Positions 1,813 to 6,975 of a stretch of 64,000 bases of DNA are shown here, in pieces. Positions within the stretch are counted from its first letter, which is position 1. Each line of letters starts with the position of its first letter. This DNA is from Actinomycetota bacterium. Lineage in GTDB: Bacteria > Actinomycetota > Geothermincolia > Geothermincolales > RBG-13-55-18. Both the position numbers and the translations under genes were made by a program. Below the pieces are notes generated by a model. The model saw only the letters and a program-made list of their open reading frames with translations, had not been told where the DNA came from and searched no databases. The DNA lies in assembly GCA_014360645.1 (NCBI GenBank), contig JACIXD010000004.1:62001-126000 (forward strand), read 5' to 3'.

Positions 1813-1813
1813 T
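1787..1813 (+). repeat. 27-bp dispersed repeat, copy 1
   Basis: Begins ATGTCCCATG and ends CTGACCCCAT, identical to four other copies in the window. It overlaps the final base of the minus-strand kinase stop codon, so the repeat begins immediately after that gene. Confidence 0.9.
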
Positions 1814-4041
1814 TAGGTGGGGATGGTGAAGCGGAAGGTGGAGCCGCCGCCCTCCCGCGGCTCGTGCCAGATGCGGCCCCCGTGCGCGGCCACGATGCGC
1901 CTCCCGATATAAAGCCCCAGCCCCAGCCCGGGGCCGCTGTGGTGCAGGGCGTCGCTCCCCTGTACGAAGCGCTCGAAGATGTTCTCGCGCTTCTCCTCCG
2001 GCACCCCCTCGCCACGGTCCAGGACGGAGAACTCCAGCCCTTCCCCGGTGCGCCGGGCGCGGAGCTCCACCTCCGAAGCGGGAGGAGAATACTTGACCGC
2101 GTTATCCAGGAGGATGATCAGCAGGTGTGCGAGGCGGTTATGGTCGAGGTGCGCCGTCCCGAGGTCCCCCTCCACCGCGACCTCGATCTTCCTCGTGCCC
2201 GCGCGCGCCCGCATCTCGTTAACCGCCAGCTCCACGGCCTCCATCACCGGGGCCTCGCGCTTGTCCAGGGCGAACAGCCCCCGCTGCAGGCGCGAAACGT
2301 CCAGGAGCTCCTCCACCACGTACACCAGGCGATCGGCGCCGGCCTCGATGGCCTTCAGGGACTCGAACCAGGTATCCCGGTCCATGCGGCCGCCGTGGCG
2401 GGAGATGGTCATTGCGTAGCCCTTGAGCAGGGTGGCGGGATGGCGCAGCTCATGGGCCGCGATGTCCAGGAAGTCCCGGAGCTGCTCTGCGCGCGCCTCC
2501 AACTCGCGCTCGTACAGCTTCTTGTCCGTGATGTCCACGACGGAGATGACGCTGCGCGGGACCTCGGGGATCATGTTCACGCTGACCAAGGCGTTTATGG
2601 GTCTGCCGCTCTTGTGCCTGGCCAGCATCTCGAACTGCATCGGACCCCTTATCTCCCCATTCAGCAGGAGGCGCGAATAGCGCTTCACCCTCTCCACGTC
2701 CTCGGGCATGATGAGGTCGATGTAGCGCATCCTGCCCACCACCTCGTCACGGGTATAACCGAAGATGTTCTCCATCTCGCGGTTGACGTCGACCACCAGG
2801 CCGCCTCTGTCCACCAGGAACATGGCCGTGCCCGTGGCCTCGAAGGTGGCGCGGTACCACGCCTCGCTCTCGCGCAGTGCCTCCTCCATCCGTTTTCTTT
2901 CCGTGATCTCGCGCACCAGGGCTAGGATGCGCCCCTCACCGGCGATGGTTCCCCGTTTGAGGTTAACCTCCACCCAAAAGAGCTCGCCATCTTTGCGCCT
3001 GGCGTGCCACACGAAGAGCTGGGGCTCTCCCGCCGCCGCCTTCCTCACCAGCTCCACCGCCCTTTCCTGGGTGTAGGGATGCACGCCGGAGCTTATATCC
3101 TCCACCCGCAGCGACCGGGCCTCCTCGGGCGTGTAGCCATACATCTCCGTCATCTTGCGGTTGACGTCCAGTATGGCCGCTGTCTCCTGGTCGTGGACGA
3201 AGATGGCGTCGTTGGCGGCGTCGAAGATCTCGCGGTAGGTGGCCTCCGAGCGCCTCAGCTCCTCCTCCACCCGCTTGAGCTGTGATATATCCCGTGCCAC
3301 CCCGATGAAACCCCTCGGGTTCCCCTTCTCGTCGCGGAAGACGGTGGTGCTCATCATGGCCGGGAATACGGAGCCGTCCCTGCGCCGGTGCCCGACCTCC
3401 CCGCTCGCCGCCCCCTCTTCCAGGGCCTTACGGTTGAACGGCGTCACTTCATCGCGCACCTGCTCGGGGGTATGGAATATCTCCAGGTGCTTCCCGATGA
3501 TCTTTCCTTCCACCTCGTGCCTGGCGTAGCCGTGCATCTCCGCCCAGGCGCCGTTAACGTAGATGATCCTCCCCTCCAGATCCGCCACGGCGATGCCGTC
3601 CACAGACTGCTCCACCGCCTGCAGGAGGCGCTTTCGCTCCTCCTCGGCGCGCCTCTGCTCGGTGACGTCGCGGGAGTTGACCACCATGCCCCGCACCAGG
3701 GGATGCTCCAGCAGGTTGTAGGAGTCCGCCTCGTGGACGCGCCAGGAGCCGTCGGCGTGGCGCACGCGCAGCTCCACGGTGCCGGTGACGCCGGGGCGCG
3801 AGAAGGCGAACTCCAGCGCCGCCCTGGCATTCTCCACGTCATCGGGATGGATGAGGGAGAAGATGCTGCTGCCCATGAGTTCCTCGGGCCGGTAGCCGAG
3901 CAGCCTCTCCACGGAAGGCCCCGCGAAGACGATGTTGCCGTCGCGGTCGAGCACCGACACCAGGTCGAGGGCGTTCTCGATGAGCAGGCGGTAATATTCC
4001 TCCCCCCGCCTCGGCTCCTTCTCCGACTCGTCGTACCGCAC
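1813..4041 (-). CDS. Sensor histidine kinase with four PAS domains
   Basis: A 742-residue cytoplasmic-looking sensor kinase with no evident membrane segment. Four PAS/PAC modules run in series, each opening with a segment like YYRLLIENALDLVSVLDRDG and closing with a DVTEQRR or DITDKK linker, covering roughly residues 15-500. The kinase core follows: H-box AAHELRHP with the phosphoacceptor near His530, N-box LLDNAVKYSPP, G1 DRGEGVPEE and G2 GPGLGLGLYIG. It should autophosphorylate in response to a small-molecule, redox or light cue sensed by PAS and pass phosphate to a response regulator; none is adjacent (the nearest is the CheY-like protein about 9.5 kb away). The GTG start follows GGAGG by about six bases. 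The stop abuts a dispersed repeat, and a decayed duplicate of the 3' end lies just beyond. The signal cannot be named from sequence. Confidence 0.93.
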   Translation of the reverse strand: MRYDESEKEPRRGEEYYRLLIENALDLVSVLDRDGNIVFAGPSVERLLGYRPEELMGSSIFSLIHPDDVENARAALEFAFSRPGVTGTVELRVRHADGSWRVHEADSYNLLEHPLVRGMVVNSRDVTEQRRAEEERKRLLQAVEQSVDGIAVADLEGRIIYVNGAWAEMHGYARHEVEGKIIGKHLEIFHTPEQVRDEVTPFNRKALEEGAASGEVGHRRRDGSVFPAMMSTTVFRDEKGNPRGFIGVARDISQLKRVEEELRRSEATYREIFDAANDAIFVHDQETAAILDVNRKMTEMYGYTPEEARSLRVEDISSGVHPYTQERAVELVRKAAAGEPQLFVWHARRKDGELFWVEVNLKRGTIAGEGRILALVREITERKRMEEALRESEAWYRATFEATGTAMFLVDRGGLVVDVNREMENIFGYTRDEVVGRMRYIDLIMPEDVERVKRYSRLLLNGEIRGPMQFEMLARHKSGRPINALVSVNMIPEVPRSVISVVDITDKKLYERELEARAEQLRDFLDIAAHELRHPATLLKGYAMTISRHGGRMDRDTWFESLKAIEAGADRLVYVVEELLDVSRLQRGLFALDKREAPVMEAVELAVNEMRARAGTRKIEVAVEGDLGTAHLDHNRLAHLLIILLDNAVKYSPPASEVELRARRTGEGLEFSVLDRGEGVPEEKRENIFERFVQGSDALHHSGPGLGLGLYIGRRIVAAHGGRIWHEPREGGGSTFRFTIPT

Positions 4042-4532: not shown

Positions 4533-4766
4533 ATGGCGGAGGACTTTCCCGCGTTCACGCGGAAAGCACGCGAGATACTGGAAGGAGCTTCCCGCCTCGA
4601 GGATATCGAGGACTACCGGGAACTGCTGTGCGGAGACTGCCCTTTTTACCATCACGGCGAGGAGGAGAACGAGGAGTGCGGCAGCTTTCGTCTTCTGAAG
4701 GCGCTGCTGGAAAGAGACGCCTTCGACCTCGAGGGCGCCCTGCGGGAGCTCGCGGGGGGCGATTGA
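4533..4766 (+). CDS. Small conserved-looking protein, function unknown
   Basis: A 77-residue acidic, soluble protein. It begins MAEDFPAFTRKAREIL and has a short Cys segment, CGDCPFYH, followed by EECGSFRLLKALLE; the three cysteines and the histidine could bind metal. The chosen ATG has GGAGG five bases upstream. An in-frame ATG 51 bases earlier (4482) has only a weak site and would add 17 charged residues. No family is recognised. It lies upstream of the radical SAM gene on the same strand, but more than 400 bp and a duplicated element separate them, so a shared operon is doubtful. Confidence 0.55.
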   Translation: MAEDFPAFTRKAREILEGASRLEDIEDYRELLCGDCPFYHHGEEENEECGSFRLLKALLERDAFDLEGALRELAGGD

Positions 4767-4796: not shown

Positions 4797-4992
4797 GTCA
4801 TCATGCAAGTGAGGGGAGCGACATCCGCCTCAATGGCGCCCACAGGAGCTTGTGGGGGTGGTTGACGTCGCTCACCGCTCAAGCGCTTCGCCCGCTGCCA
4901 TCATGTATATATGAAGGTATAAGGGGAGCTGGAGGGAGCGCCGTCCGGCTCCGTGGCGCCCACGGAAGCCGGCGAGGGGCGGTTGAGCGGGC
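4797..4992 (+). repeat. Two diverged copies of a structured 5' element upstream of the radical SAM gene
   Basis: A block of about 53 bases starting GGGAGCG at 4814 recurs exactly 120 bases later at 4934, including TGGCGCCCAC and GG(T/C)GGTTGA, with roughly 70% identity. Copy 1 can fold: GCGAC pairs with GTCGC and CCCACA with TGTGGG. Copy 2 has different bases at those positions but can pair GCCCGCT with AGCGGGC around it. Tandem conserved folds ahead of a gene suggest a leader RNA, yet no known riboswitch class is recognised. It may simply be another intergenic tandem duplication. Confidence 0.45.
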
Positions 4993-5168: not shown

Positions 5169-6347
5169 ATGAGCGCTGGTGAGCGGCCATATACGGAGCG
5201 GGATCTCCTGAGGCTCGCGGACGGCTGCTTTCTCAAGCGCCTGGAGACACCGTGCGTGTACAACGCGGCGCGGGACGAACTATACGAGCTCTCAGAGGAA
5301 GCCCTCGACTTCCTGGCCCGCTGCGACGGAACCCGCACCGTGGAGGAGCTGCGGCCCGAGGGCGCCTTTCTCTCCTACTGCCTCGAGGAGGGGCTGCTGG
5401 TGTCGGGGCAGGATATCGGGTCCAGGGAGATGAGCATCGGGGTCAACGAGGTCCCTTCCCTGCGCTATCTCATGGTTGAGGTCACCGAACGCTGCAACCT
5501 GCGCTGCCGCCACTGCTACCTCGGCGACGCGGGTTCCTCAGACCTGGACTTGCAGCTGCTCATGGCCCTGCTGGACGAGTTCGACGAGCTGGGCGGCCTG
5601 AGGCTCATGGTCACGGGCGGGGAGCCCCTGCTCTACCCGGGATTCCATGCCCTCAACCGGGCCCTGGCAGGGAGGTCCTTCCGTCCCGTGCTCATCACCA
5701 ACGGCATCCTCCTGGGCGGGGAGGACCTCTCTCACCTCAACTTCCTGGAGATCCAGTTCTCGGTGGACGGTCTCGAGGCGGGACACGAATCCCTGCGCGG
5801 CAGAGGCACCTTCACGGAGGTCATGGAGGCCCTGCGGCGGGCCGTCGCGGCGGGCATCGACGTATCGGTGGCCACGGTCATCCACGCGCGCAACCTCGGC
5901 GAGCTGGAGGAGCTGGGCACCCTGCTCTCGGAGATGGGCGTCTCCGCATGGAACCTGGAATATCCGGTGGCCAGCGGTCGTATGGCGGACAACCCCGACC
6001 TGATGCTGGCTCCCGAGGAGGCAGCTCCCTTCTTCGAGCTGGAATGGGGATGGGGCGCCCACGAGGGAGCGCCCGGCTACGCCTGCGGTGCGCACCTGGC
6101 CGCGGTGGAACCGGGAGGACGCCTGGTGAAATGCGGCTATTACCGGGAGGTGAGCGGAGGCCGCCTGGAGAAGGGCCTGCGGCAGGCCTGGCGGGACCTT
6201 CCCAAGCTGAGGCTGGAGGGGGAATGCGCTTCCTGTGAGCTGCTGGCGGAGTGCGGGGGAGGCTGCCGCTACCGAGCGGAATCCGCCTGCGGGGCGGGCG
6301 GCCCCGACCTCCTCATGTGCGCTCGCATGGGACGGCGCCGCGGTTAG
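5169..6347 (+). CDS. PqqD-radical SAM-SPASM peptide maturase
   Basis: A 392-residue protein with the architecture of RiPP-maturing radical SAM enzymes. Residues 8-80 resemble a PqqD/RRE precursor-binding domain (LADGCFLKRLETPCVYN, YELSEEALDFLARCDG). The radical SAM core carries CNLRCRHC at Cys109/113/116 for the SAM-binding 4Fe-4S cluster and TGGEPLLYPG as the SAM-contacting motif. A C-terminal SPASM-type cysteine set follows at about 306, 322, 353, 356, 362, 366, 374 and 384, able to hold auxiliary clusters. The start is the ATG seven bases after AAGGAG; an upstream in-frame extension has no ribosome site. The small Cys-rich gene 278 bp downstream is the natural candidate substrate, from proximity and domain logic. 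A tandemly duplicated element precedes the gene. A SPASM enzyme with another peptide or protein substrate remains possible. Confidence 0.88.
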   Translation: MSAGERPYTERDLLRLADGCFLKRLETPCVYNAARDELYELSEEALDFLARCDGTRTVEELRPEGAFLSYCLEEGLLVSGQDIGSREMSIGVNEVPSLRYLMVEVTERCNLRCRHCYLGDAGSSDLDLQLLMALLDEFDELGGLRLMVTGGEPLLYPGFHALNRALAGRSFRPVLITNGILLGGEDLSHLNFLEIQFSVDGLEAGHESLRGRGTFTEVMEALRRAVAAGIDVSVATVIHARNLGELEELGTLLSEMGVSAWNLEYPVASGRMADNPDLMLAPEEAAPFFELEWGWGAHEGAPGYACGAHLAAVEPGGRLVKCGYYREVSGGRLEKGLRQAWRDLPKLRLEGECASCELLAECGGGCRYRAESACGAGGPDLLMCARMGRRRG

Positions 6348-6368
6348 GCACCGCGCTCCGCACTCTCT

Positions 6369-6545
6369 GCTTTCCCCCCGTCCTTCCCGTTGAACCCCGT
6401 AACATGGGAGTATCTCCAAATCCGGCAAAGGACTCCCCGCTTTCCCCCCTGTCCTCCCCGGTGCACCTTGGAACATAAGATCTAATATGAATCCAGTAAA
6501 GAACCCCTCGCTTTGCCGCTCCTGCCCACCCCGGTGAAGCCGCTT
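6369..6545 (+). repeat. Three imperfect ~70-bp direct repeats between maturase and peptide gene
   Basis: Pyrimidine-rich blocks beginning GCTTTCCCC(C), followed by C-rich sequence and a purine spacer, recur at 6369, 6439 and 6510 (offsets 70 and 71). Copies 1 and 2 match best. They fill the gap before the peptide promoter and carry no convincing reading frame. Confidence 0.55.
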
Positions 6546-6586
6546 TCCGGGTTGACGGTCGAGGTTTATGGCTTGCGCGGCGGGTG

Positions 6587-6592
6587 TATAAT
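6587..6592 (+). promoter_or_regulatory. Likely -10 element of the Cys-rich peptide gene
   Basis: A perfect TATAAT lies 33 bases upstream of the start codon. The expected -35 position (about 6564-6569, GTTTAT) is poor. A good TTGACG at 6552 is 29 bp away, too far for a standard spacer, so an activator or alternative sigma factor may take part. Confidence 0.5.
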
Positions 6593-6625
6593 GTTTACAG
6601 GAACCACTACCAAGGAGGTGGTGAG

Positions 6626-6691
6626 ATGAGGATCACGAAGATCCCCAGACGGAAGGGCGGCACTTGCAAGTGCAATAAGAGCTGCGGTTAG
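6626..6691 (+). CDS. 21-residue Cys-rich peptide, putative RiPP precursor
   Basis: The ATG follows CAAGGAGGTGGTGAG, giving a strong ribosome site. The peptide starts MRITKIPRRK and ends GGTCKCNKSCG: a short basic leader-like half, a Gly-Gly, then a C-terminal half with Cys at positions 14, 16 and 20 (CxCxxxC). A TATAAT box lies upstream and a textbook terminator begins 14 bases after the stop, so this is a self-contained short transcript. Its position after a PqqD-radical SAM-SPASM enzyme suggests a modified peptide (for example thioether or other radical cross-linking), but it matches no precursor family I know. At 21 residues it would be among the shorter precursors. A metal-binding peptide or regulatory leader peptide is the main alternative. 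No dedicated protease or exporter is nearby. Confidence 0.72.
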   Translation: MRITKIPRRKGGTCKCNKSCG

Positions 6692-6705
6692 CACGCCCTA
6701 ACCGG

Positions 6706-6734
6706 GAGGGGGGCTTCCGGGCCCCCCTCTTTTT
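6706..6734 (+). terminator. Rho-independent terminator of the peptide gene
   Basis: A perfect 9-bp stem, GAGGGGGGC/GCCCCCCTC, with a six-base TTCCGG loop is followed by TTTTT. It begins 14 bases after the peptide stop codon. Confidence 0.92.
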
Positions 6735-6743
6735 GGTCTCCCT

Positions 6744-6975
6744 TTCCTGTTTCCTCTCCCTGCCGACGAACCGTGAGGCGCGGAGTCCTGACGGACATGC
6801 GTGCGCTCCCTCTTCCTGTTTCCTGTCCCTGGATCGACCGGGCAGTAATGCCGAGGGGTCCCGCCGGCTACGCCTTCATCTCTTTTGTTTCCTGTCTTTG
6901 GGAAGAACGAGCCACGAGGCCGACGGACCCCATGTTTCGCGCGCTCGTTACCCATTCCTGTTTCCTGTCCACGGT
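6744..6975 (+). repeat. Four pyrimidine-rich repeats at ~70-bp spacing
   Basis: Copies of about TTCCTGTTTCCTGTCC are aligned by their central G at 6749, 6818, 6887 and 6960 (offsets 69, 69 and 73). The intervening sequences are unrelated, giving a CRISPR-like regular spacing, but the repeat is short, has no dyad and the period is too long for the array at the left end. From 6976 to about 7220 nothing further is recognised. Confidence 0.6.

Follow-up and report, generated by a model that had tools for sequence, protein, structure and literature searches.

In the PQQ and mycofactocin pathways, a tyrosine of the precursor becomes the redox group of the product. The precursor of the PQQ pathway (PqqA/PqqD/PqqE) averages 23 aa (PMC3023750) and has a conserved glutamate and tyrosine, while mycofactocin (MftA/MftB/MftC) combines a strongly conserved precursor C-terminus with a radical SAM–SPASM enzyme and no transporter (PMC3023750). 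In the streptide (SuiB/SuiA) and sporulation killing factor (SkfB/SkfA) systems, a maturase with the domain order RRE–TIM barrel–SPASM adjoins a small precursor.

The locus described here lies within a 64,000-nt stretch of a 3.38-Mb actinobacterial genome (G000:C4:62001–126000), hereafter the window, and resembles each of these systems in part. It shares with the PQQ pathway a similar precursor length, a PqqD-like domain, a SPASM enzyme and wide taxonomic conservation, and with mycofactocin the conserved precursor tail, the radical SAM–SPASM enzyme and the lack of a transporter (PMC3023750). However, tyrosine is absent from all 41 peptides compared, the precursor ends in CKCxxSC(G) rather than CGVY, the RRE is fused to the enzyme, and the maturase stays far below the cut-offs for PqqE (55.4 vs 381.35 bits) and MftC (73.9 vs 265 bits). 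SuiB and SkfB have the same domain order as the maturase, give a near full-length fold match and likewise adjoin a small precursor, although sequence identity to them is merely 15–18%. In contrast to their systems, the whole precursor here is 20–21 aa long and near-invariant across phyla, conserved export or immunity genes are absent, and an additional small Cys protein is present.

All NCBIfam equivalogs shown for the maturase were far below cut-off. The best match, GeoRSP (TIGR04303), scored 92.7 bits where 400 are required and aligned best over the radical SAM core only; scores were also far too low for the sactipeptide/ranthipeptide families StsB (77.9 bits vs 625) and, with the Desulfocarbo ortholog, AlbA (45.7 bits vs 850). 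The peptide and the small Cys protein are covered by no curated family, and none of the curated families searched describes the pairing of the peptide with the maturase, in agreement with the first-pass annotation of this DNA, which had recognized no known precursor family. The open-licence literature, with incomplete coverage, yielded no earlier description of this system, whether by motif or by taxon; a Desulfarculus baarsii peptide in PMC4289311 was considered but proved to be a 111-aa NHLP/Nif11-type precursor instead.

Gene organization and predicted fold of the maturase

The maturase and the tiny peptide gene proposed in the first-pass annotation were both confirmed (Table 1). Judged by its conserved position, a small Cys protein that had been missing from that account belongs to the conserved unit as well, making three genes.

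Table 1. Features of the locus, in window coordinates.
Feature	Position	Strand	Basis
Small Cys protein, 77 aa, MAEDFPAF...LCGDCPFYHHGEEENEECGSF...	4533..4766	+	conserved directly upstream of the maturase
PqqD-like/RRE + radical SAM + SPASM maturase, 392 aa	5169..6347	+	motifs, AF2 model, fold matches
TATAAT -10-like element of the peptide gene	6587..6592	+	sequence; same place kept across the window's order
Short hairpin CACTACC-AAGGA-GGTGGTG enclosing the ribosome site	6605..6623	+	conserved in the order
Candidate precursor peptide gene, MRITKIPRRKGGTCKCNKSCG, 21 aa	6626..6691	+	homologs beside maturase orthologs in two phyla
Rho-independent terminator of the peptide gene	6704..6735	+	12-pair stem (6704-6731), then TTTTT; -23.8 kcal/mol

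The radical SAM motif CxxxCxxC of the maturase is formed by C109, C113 and C116, and its SPASM region contains seven cysteines (C306-x10-G-x4-C322, C353-x2-C356-x5-C362-x3-C366 and C384). The three motif cysteines as well as C306, C322, C353, C356, C362 and C366 are invariant in 46 maturase sequences, and C384 is invariant in the 16 sequences of the window's order. The eighth SPASM-region cysteine counted in the first pass, C374, is present in the window but unconserved in relatives. Two conserved cysteines also lie inside the RRE domain: C52 (5322–5324), invariant in all 46 sequences, and C71 (5379–5381), conserved in at least 90%.

AlphaFold modeling of the maturase from 46 sequences gave a pLDDT of 93.1 and a pTM of 0.91. 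The model aligned with SkfB from residue 18 (Z 26.5, 320 aligned residues, 4.4 Å) and with SuiB carrying its bound precursor from residue 13 (Z 25.9, 355 residues, 3.8 Å), whereas enzymes matched over the barrel and SPASM alone gave about 280–290 aligned residues; the fold match therefore includes the N-terminal leader-binding domain. A further match was the sactipeptide enzyme CteB (Z 23). In addition, a profile of the N-terminal domain aligned with a genuine PqqD encoded elsewhere in this genome (hhalign E 1.2e-5, probability 81%). The Pfam PqqD model did not match this domain, and since it misses this maturase, a missing Pfam hit is not read as a missing domain. The PqqD-like N-terminus claimed in the first pass is thus upheld by predicted fold and profile comparison, though not by Pfam.

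The small Cys protein, with the motif LCGDCPFYHHGEEENEECG, stands directly upstream of the maturase at the loci with sequence there. In nine Desulfomonile/Syntrophaceae-type loci (L064–L069, L073, L074, L076) the two form one protein, with the small Cys part at the maturase N-terminus, a fusion that links them functionally. Thermodesulfobacteriota versions contain two Cys-rich repeats, and Actinomycetota versions a single one, which aligns with the first. Searches of Pfam, NCBIfam and PHROGs returned no match, and comparison of its sequence with the PDB returned nothing significant; a PDB fold search with the fused model matched the maturase part alone, barely probing the small Cys domain. We propose that the protein is an accessory, metal- or cluster-binding partner of the maturase.

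In a different reading of the same neighborhood, the peptide, whose CxCxxxC is invariant, would bind metal or serve in redox without being modified, and the maturase would modify another substrate, for example the adjoining small Cys protein. However, its fusion to the enzyme in nine loci makes that protein a poor candidate for a substrate, and the enzyme, equipped with a leader-binding domain, aligns with peptide maturases along almost its entire length; this explanation is therefore improbable. Although the maturase could act on another substrate, we infer that its substrate is, very probably, the short peptide.

Distribution and linkage of the peptide and the maturase

The motif pattern of the peptide, run over 396 genomes of the phylum, matched 17 genomes, 16 of them from the window's order, while the reversed pattern used as a control matched 2; the occurrence of the motif is far beyond chance. 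Fourteen of the 16 matches in the order lie downstream of an orthologous maturase and are near-identical in sequence, and the other two are close to a contig end (G007 and G008, the latter with a transposase-like gene after the maturase). Maturase orthologs were found in 17 of the 18 genomes of the order, with 54–79% identity where complete; one is divided between two contig ends, and the genome without an ortholog is only 79% complete. Among named organisms, Candidatus Solincola MAGs carry the maturases closest to that of the window (for L089, 79% identity).

A scan of one genome per GTDB species, keyed on short conserved maturase stretches so that distant members will be missed, revealed 44 maturase orthologs, nearly all in two phyla, Actinomycetota and Thermodesulfobacteriota/Desulfobacterota (several of the latter labelled merely 'Deltaproteobacteria'). 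The genomes compared are mostly MAGs, with Desulfocarbo indianensis SCBM (L084) as a named carrier strain, and the carriers of the peptide, the maturase and the small Cys protein are anaerobic bacteria. One isolated motif match (L032 in G056), in which the front half of the peptide is missing, was rejected as a family member.

Peptide and maturase are closely linked across these genomes. In a Desulfarculales-type order, the maturase is present in 18 of 21 genomes and the peptide in 17 of those 18, the remaining maturase being cut by a contig end; the peptide was found in none of the three genomes lacking the maturase. The window's class has the maturase in 22 of 31 genomes and the peptide in 19 of those 22. 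The pattern matched none of the nine maturase-free genomes of the class, a weak negative, as it is blind to the divergent version of the peptide. Nearly all maturase orthologs with intact flanks have a 20–21 aa peptide homolog close by. Orthologs without a detected peptide have a contig edge on the expected side, with the exception of G003, in which the maturase is broken across two contigs and no such peptide occurs in 1.5 kb downstream. Short CxCxxxC peptides beside maturase homologs in relatives, which the first-pass annotation had suggested looking for, are thus kept across two phyla, and the outcome it had named as refuting, a peptide not conserved at that place in relatives, did not occur. 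The maturase is single copy, with no second match at E<=1e-50 in either the class or the Desulfarculales-type order.

In the maturase tree, the window's order (support 97/97) and a sister actinobacterial group (100/99) are joined with 100/99 support. One long-branched Desulfuromonadaceae row adjoins these clades, its placement being unsure, and under midpoint rooting every other row falls on the far side. The topology fits mostly vertical inheritance of the maturase inside each phylum. An association of the system with acetyl-CoA synthase was considered and rejected, since the CdhC domain does not discriminate: every one of the 31 genomes in the class has it, the nine maturase-free ones among them.

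Conservation, expression signals and genomic context of the peptide

Across 41 peptides from different genomes, I3, K5, C14, K15, C16, S19 and C20 are invariant besides the start, and limited variation is seen at positions 6 (I/V/L), 8 (K/R), 12 (G/S) and 13 (L/T/M); the length is 20–21 aa throughout and the CKCxxSC tail is almost constant. Codon differences within the family are synonymous in 348 of 451 cases (77%), against 20% expected for random single changes, which indicates selection on the peptide itself.

The position of the gene differs among groups. In Thermodesulfobacteriota/Desulfobacterota, where the typical peptide is MKI[RKQ]K[IV]...[RK]G[LM]CKCxxSC, the gene usually precedes the maturase by 0.4–1.5 kb; the window's order has it downstream of the maturase; and in the sister group within the window's own class, where the peptide is MRIVKVAKKASSTCKCSKSC, it is divergently placed. 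One Desulfarculus genome (L080) has tandem peptide genes at 5317–5379 and 5502–5564, encoding MKIRKIVRTQRGLCKCKSSC and MKIKKIVRTQRGLCKCHSSC.

A short ORF with clustered Cys codons adjoining a terminator is also what a cysteine-codon transcription attenuator would look like, the ORF being a regulatory leader whose peptide product is irrelevant, and in Desulfobacterota the ORF does precede the small protein and the maturase, from which a hairpin separates it. Such a device is highly improbable, however, since the non-Cys residues I3, K5, K15 and S19 do not vary, unlike the synonymous codons, the ORF co-occurs with the maturase, and it is located downstream of the maturase in the window's order and divergently in the sister group, i.e., it heads no constant gene.

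The peptide gene is preceded by a strong AAGGAGG ribosome site. This site, the TATAAT element and the terminator, with its 12-pair stem and T tract, all stand as described in the first pass, whereas no consensus -35 paired with the TATAAT was found upstream of the gene. The hairpin enclosing the ribosome site has a fold energy of -11.1 kcal/mol (z -2.25), and family f2 retains its stem with one compensatory pair (C-G to A-U). Together, the conservation of the hairpin and this compensatory pair are a modest sign of controlled expression of the peptide. Scanned with Infernal/Rfam, the region gave no match to a known RNA. Imperfect short direct repeats occupy the intergenic stretches 4814–4978 and 6744–6973, one of 45 nt occurring twice and TTCCTGTTTCCTSTCCCTG three times.

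No transporter, immunity or protease gene common to the loci was found; the lack of a nearby exporter or protease, pointed out in the first-pass annotation, is real and extends to relatives. An S15 peptidase 0.6 kb downstream was rejected as the processing protease, being beside the unit in only two relatives. These observations bear on whether the product is an exported sactipeptide- or ranthipeptide-type bacteriocin that leaves the cell via general export machinery. SkfB, a sactisynthase, and CteB, which acts on sactipeptides, are among the top fold matches, and the tail of the peptide is Cys-rich, both in keeping with such a product. Yet besides the missing transporter, protease and immunity genes, there is a single maturase per genome, and the peptide is near-identical among genera and recognizable between phyla, whereas bacteriocin cores usually diversify. 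We therefore consider a bacteriocin unlikely.

Other neighbors are of limited distribution. A multi-PAS histidine kinase gene (1813–4041), on the opposite strand, precedes that of the small Cys protein; a homolog is near the unit in most same-family relatives and confined to that family, and it may be a regulator of the unit or merely syntenic. In L086, L087, L088, L090 and L091, the gene of a DUF192-type protein separates the peptide gene from that of the small Cys protein (assigned by a Pfam match for L086 and by comparable reading frames in the other four), and in 14 Desulfobacterota loci the maturase is followed by a cupin-like protein of 117 aa. As both occur in only some Desulfobacterota loci, they were not retained as parts of the unit. 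About 12 kb away and outside the window, a second RiPP-like operon on the minus strand (G000:C4 about 50.4–54.9 kb; L095 6416–10868) encodes a radical SAM/SPASM protein, a true Pfam PqqD, Transglut_core3 (lasso B2-like), NTP_transf_5 and a 342-aa ORF that matches nothing in Pfam.

Proposed pathway and its significance

On computational evidence, the elements of a RiPP pathway are found together at the locus, namely CxxxCxxC with a seven-Cys SPASM, a PqqD-like RRE and an adjacent conserved short precursor gene. We consider it likely that the genes form a minimal RiPP-type pathway of a 20–21 aa precursor, an RRE–radical SAM–SPASM maturase and a small Cys accessory, with a conserved and probably intracellular product.

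RREs in general bind the leader peptide as an added strand. In the proposed pathway, the basic, strand-like front of the precursor (M-x-I-x-K-I/V/L-x-K/R) would be bound in this way by the N-terminal PqqD-like domain, and the tail, G/S-x-C-K-C-x-x-S-C(G), would reach the active site at the SAM radical, where the 5'-deoxyadenosyl radical, with the SPASM clusters as electron acceptors, would modify it oxidatively. The modification would be Cys-centered, most likely a thioether cross-link from Cys to a neighboring carbon; thioether chemistry on this peptide is a tentative guess, to which we give slightly less than even weight. The first-pass annotation had suggested that the three cysteines are cross-linked; the bond may instead involve K15 or S19, the sole invariant residues of the tail besides C14, C16 and C20, or the cysteines may serve as metal ligands. 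The small Cys protein would probably deliver electrons, metal or a cluster, or shield thiols.

The leader would either stay attached or be trimmed from the precursor by general proteases. Since the loci have no conserved partner for cleavage or export, the product is probably used within the cell, in the manner of a cofactor or metal ligand and not as a secreted bacteriocin. An intracellular cofactor or metal role is a guess that we marginally favor; with no conserved client enzyme or cofactor user found among the loci, the cofactor role rests on the conservation of the peptide and the absent export genes. Against it counts that the peptide has no tyrosine, the residue from which PQQ and mycofactocin derive their redox groups. 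The original proposal of mycofactocin as an electron carrier used the same no-export argument (PMC3023750). More speculatively, the product might be a new ribosomal intracellular cofactor or metal ligand of anaerobes, PQQ- or mycofactocin-like in kind but based on the thiols or thioethers of a CKCxxSC tail, and made by a leader-binding radical SAM enzyme of its own with the aid of a dedicated Cys-rich protein.

Precursors this short usually go unannotated, and therefore whole pathways go unnoticed. In the case described here, the substrate is so small that its direct synthesis and assay are possible. To our knowledge, few ribosomal peptides with a housekeeping role are known. That this peptide has stayed frozen in two phyla, with a single maturase in each genome and no genes for export, speaks for a housekeeping product and against a weapon, and suggests an undescribed ribosomal, enzyme-modified peptide with a basic intracellular role, not a one-off antibiotic.
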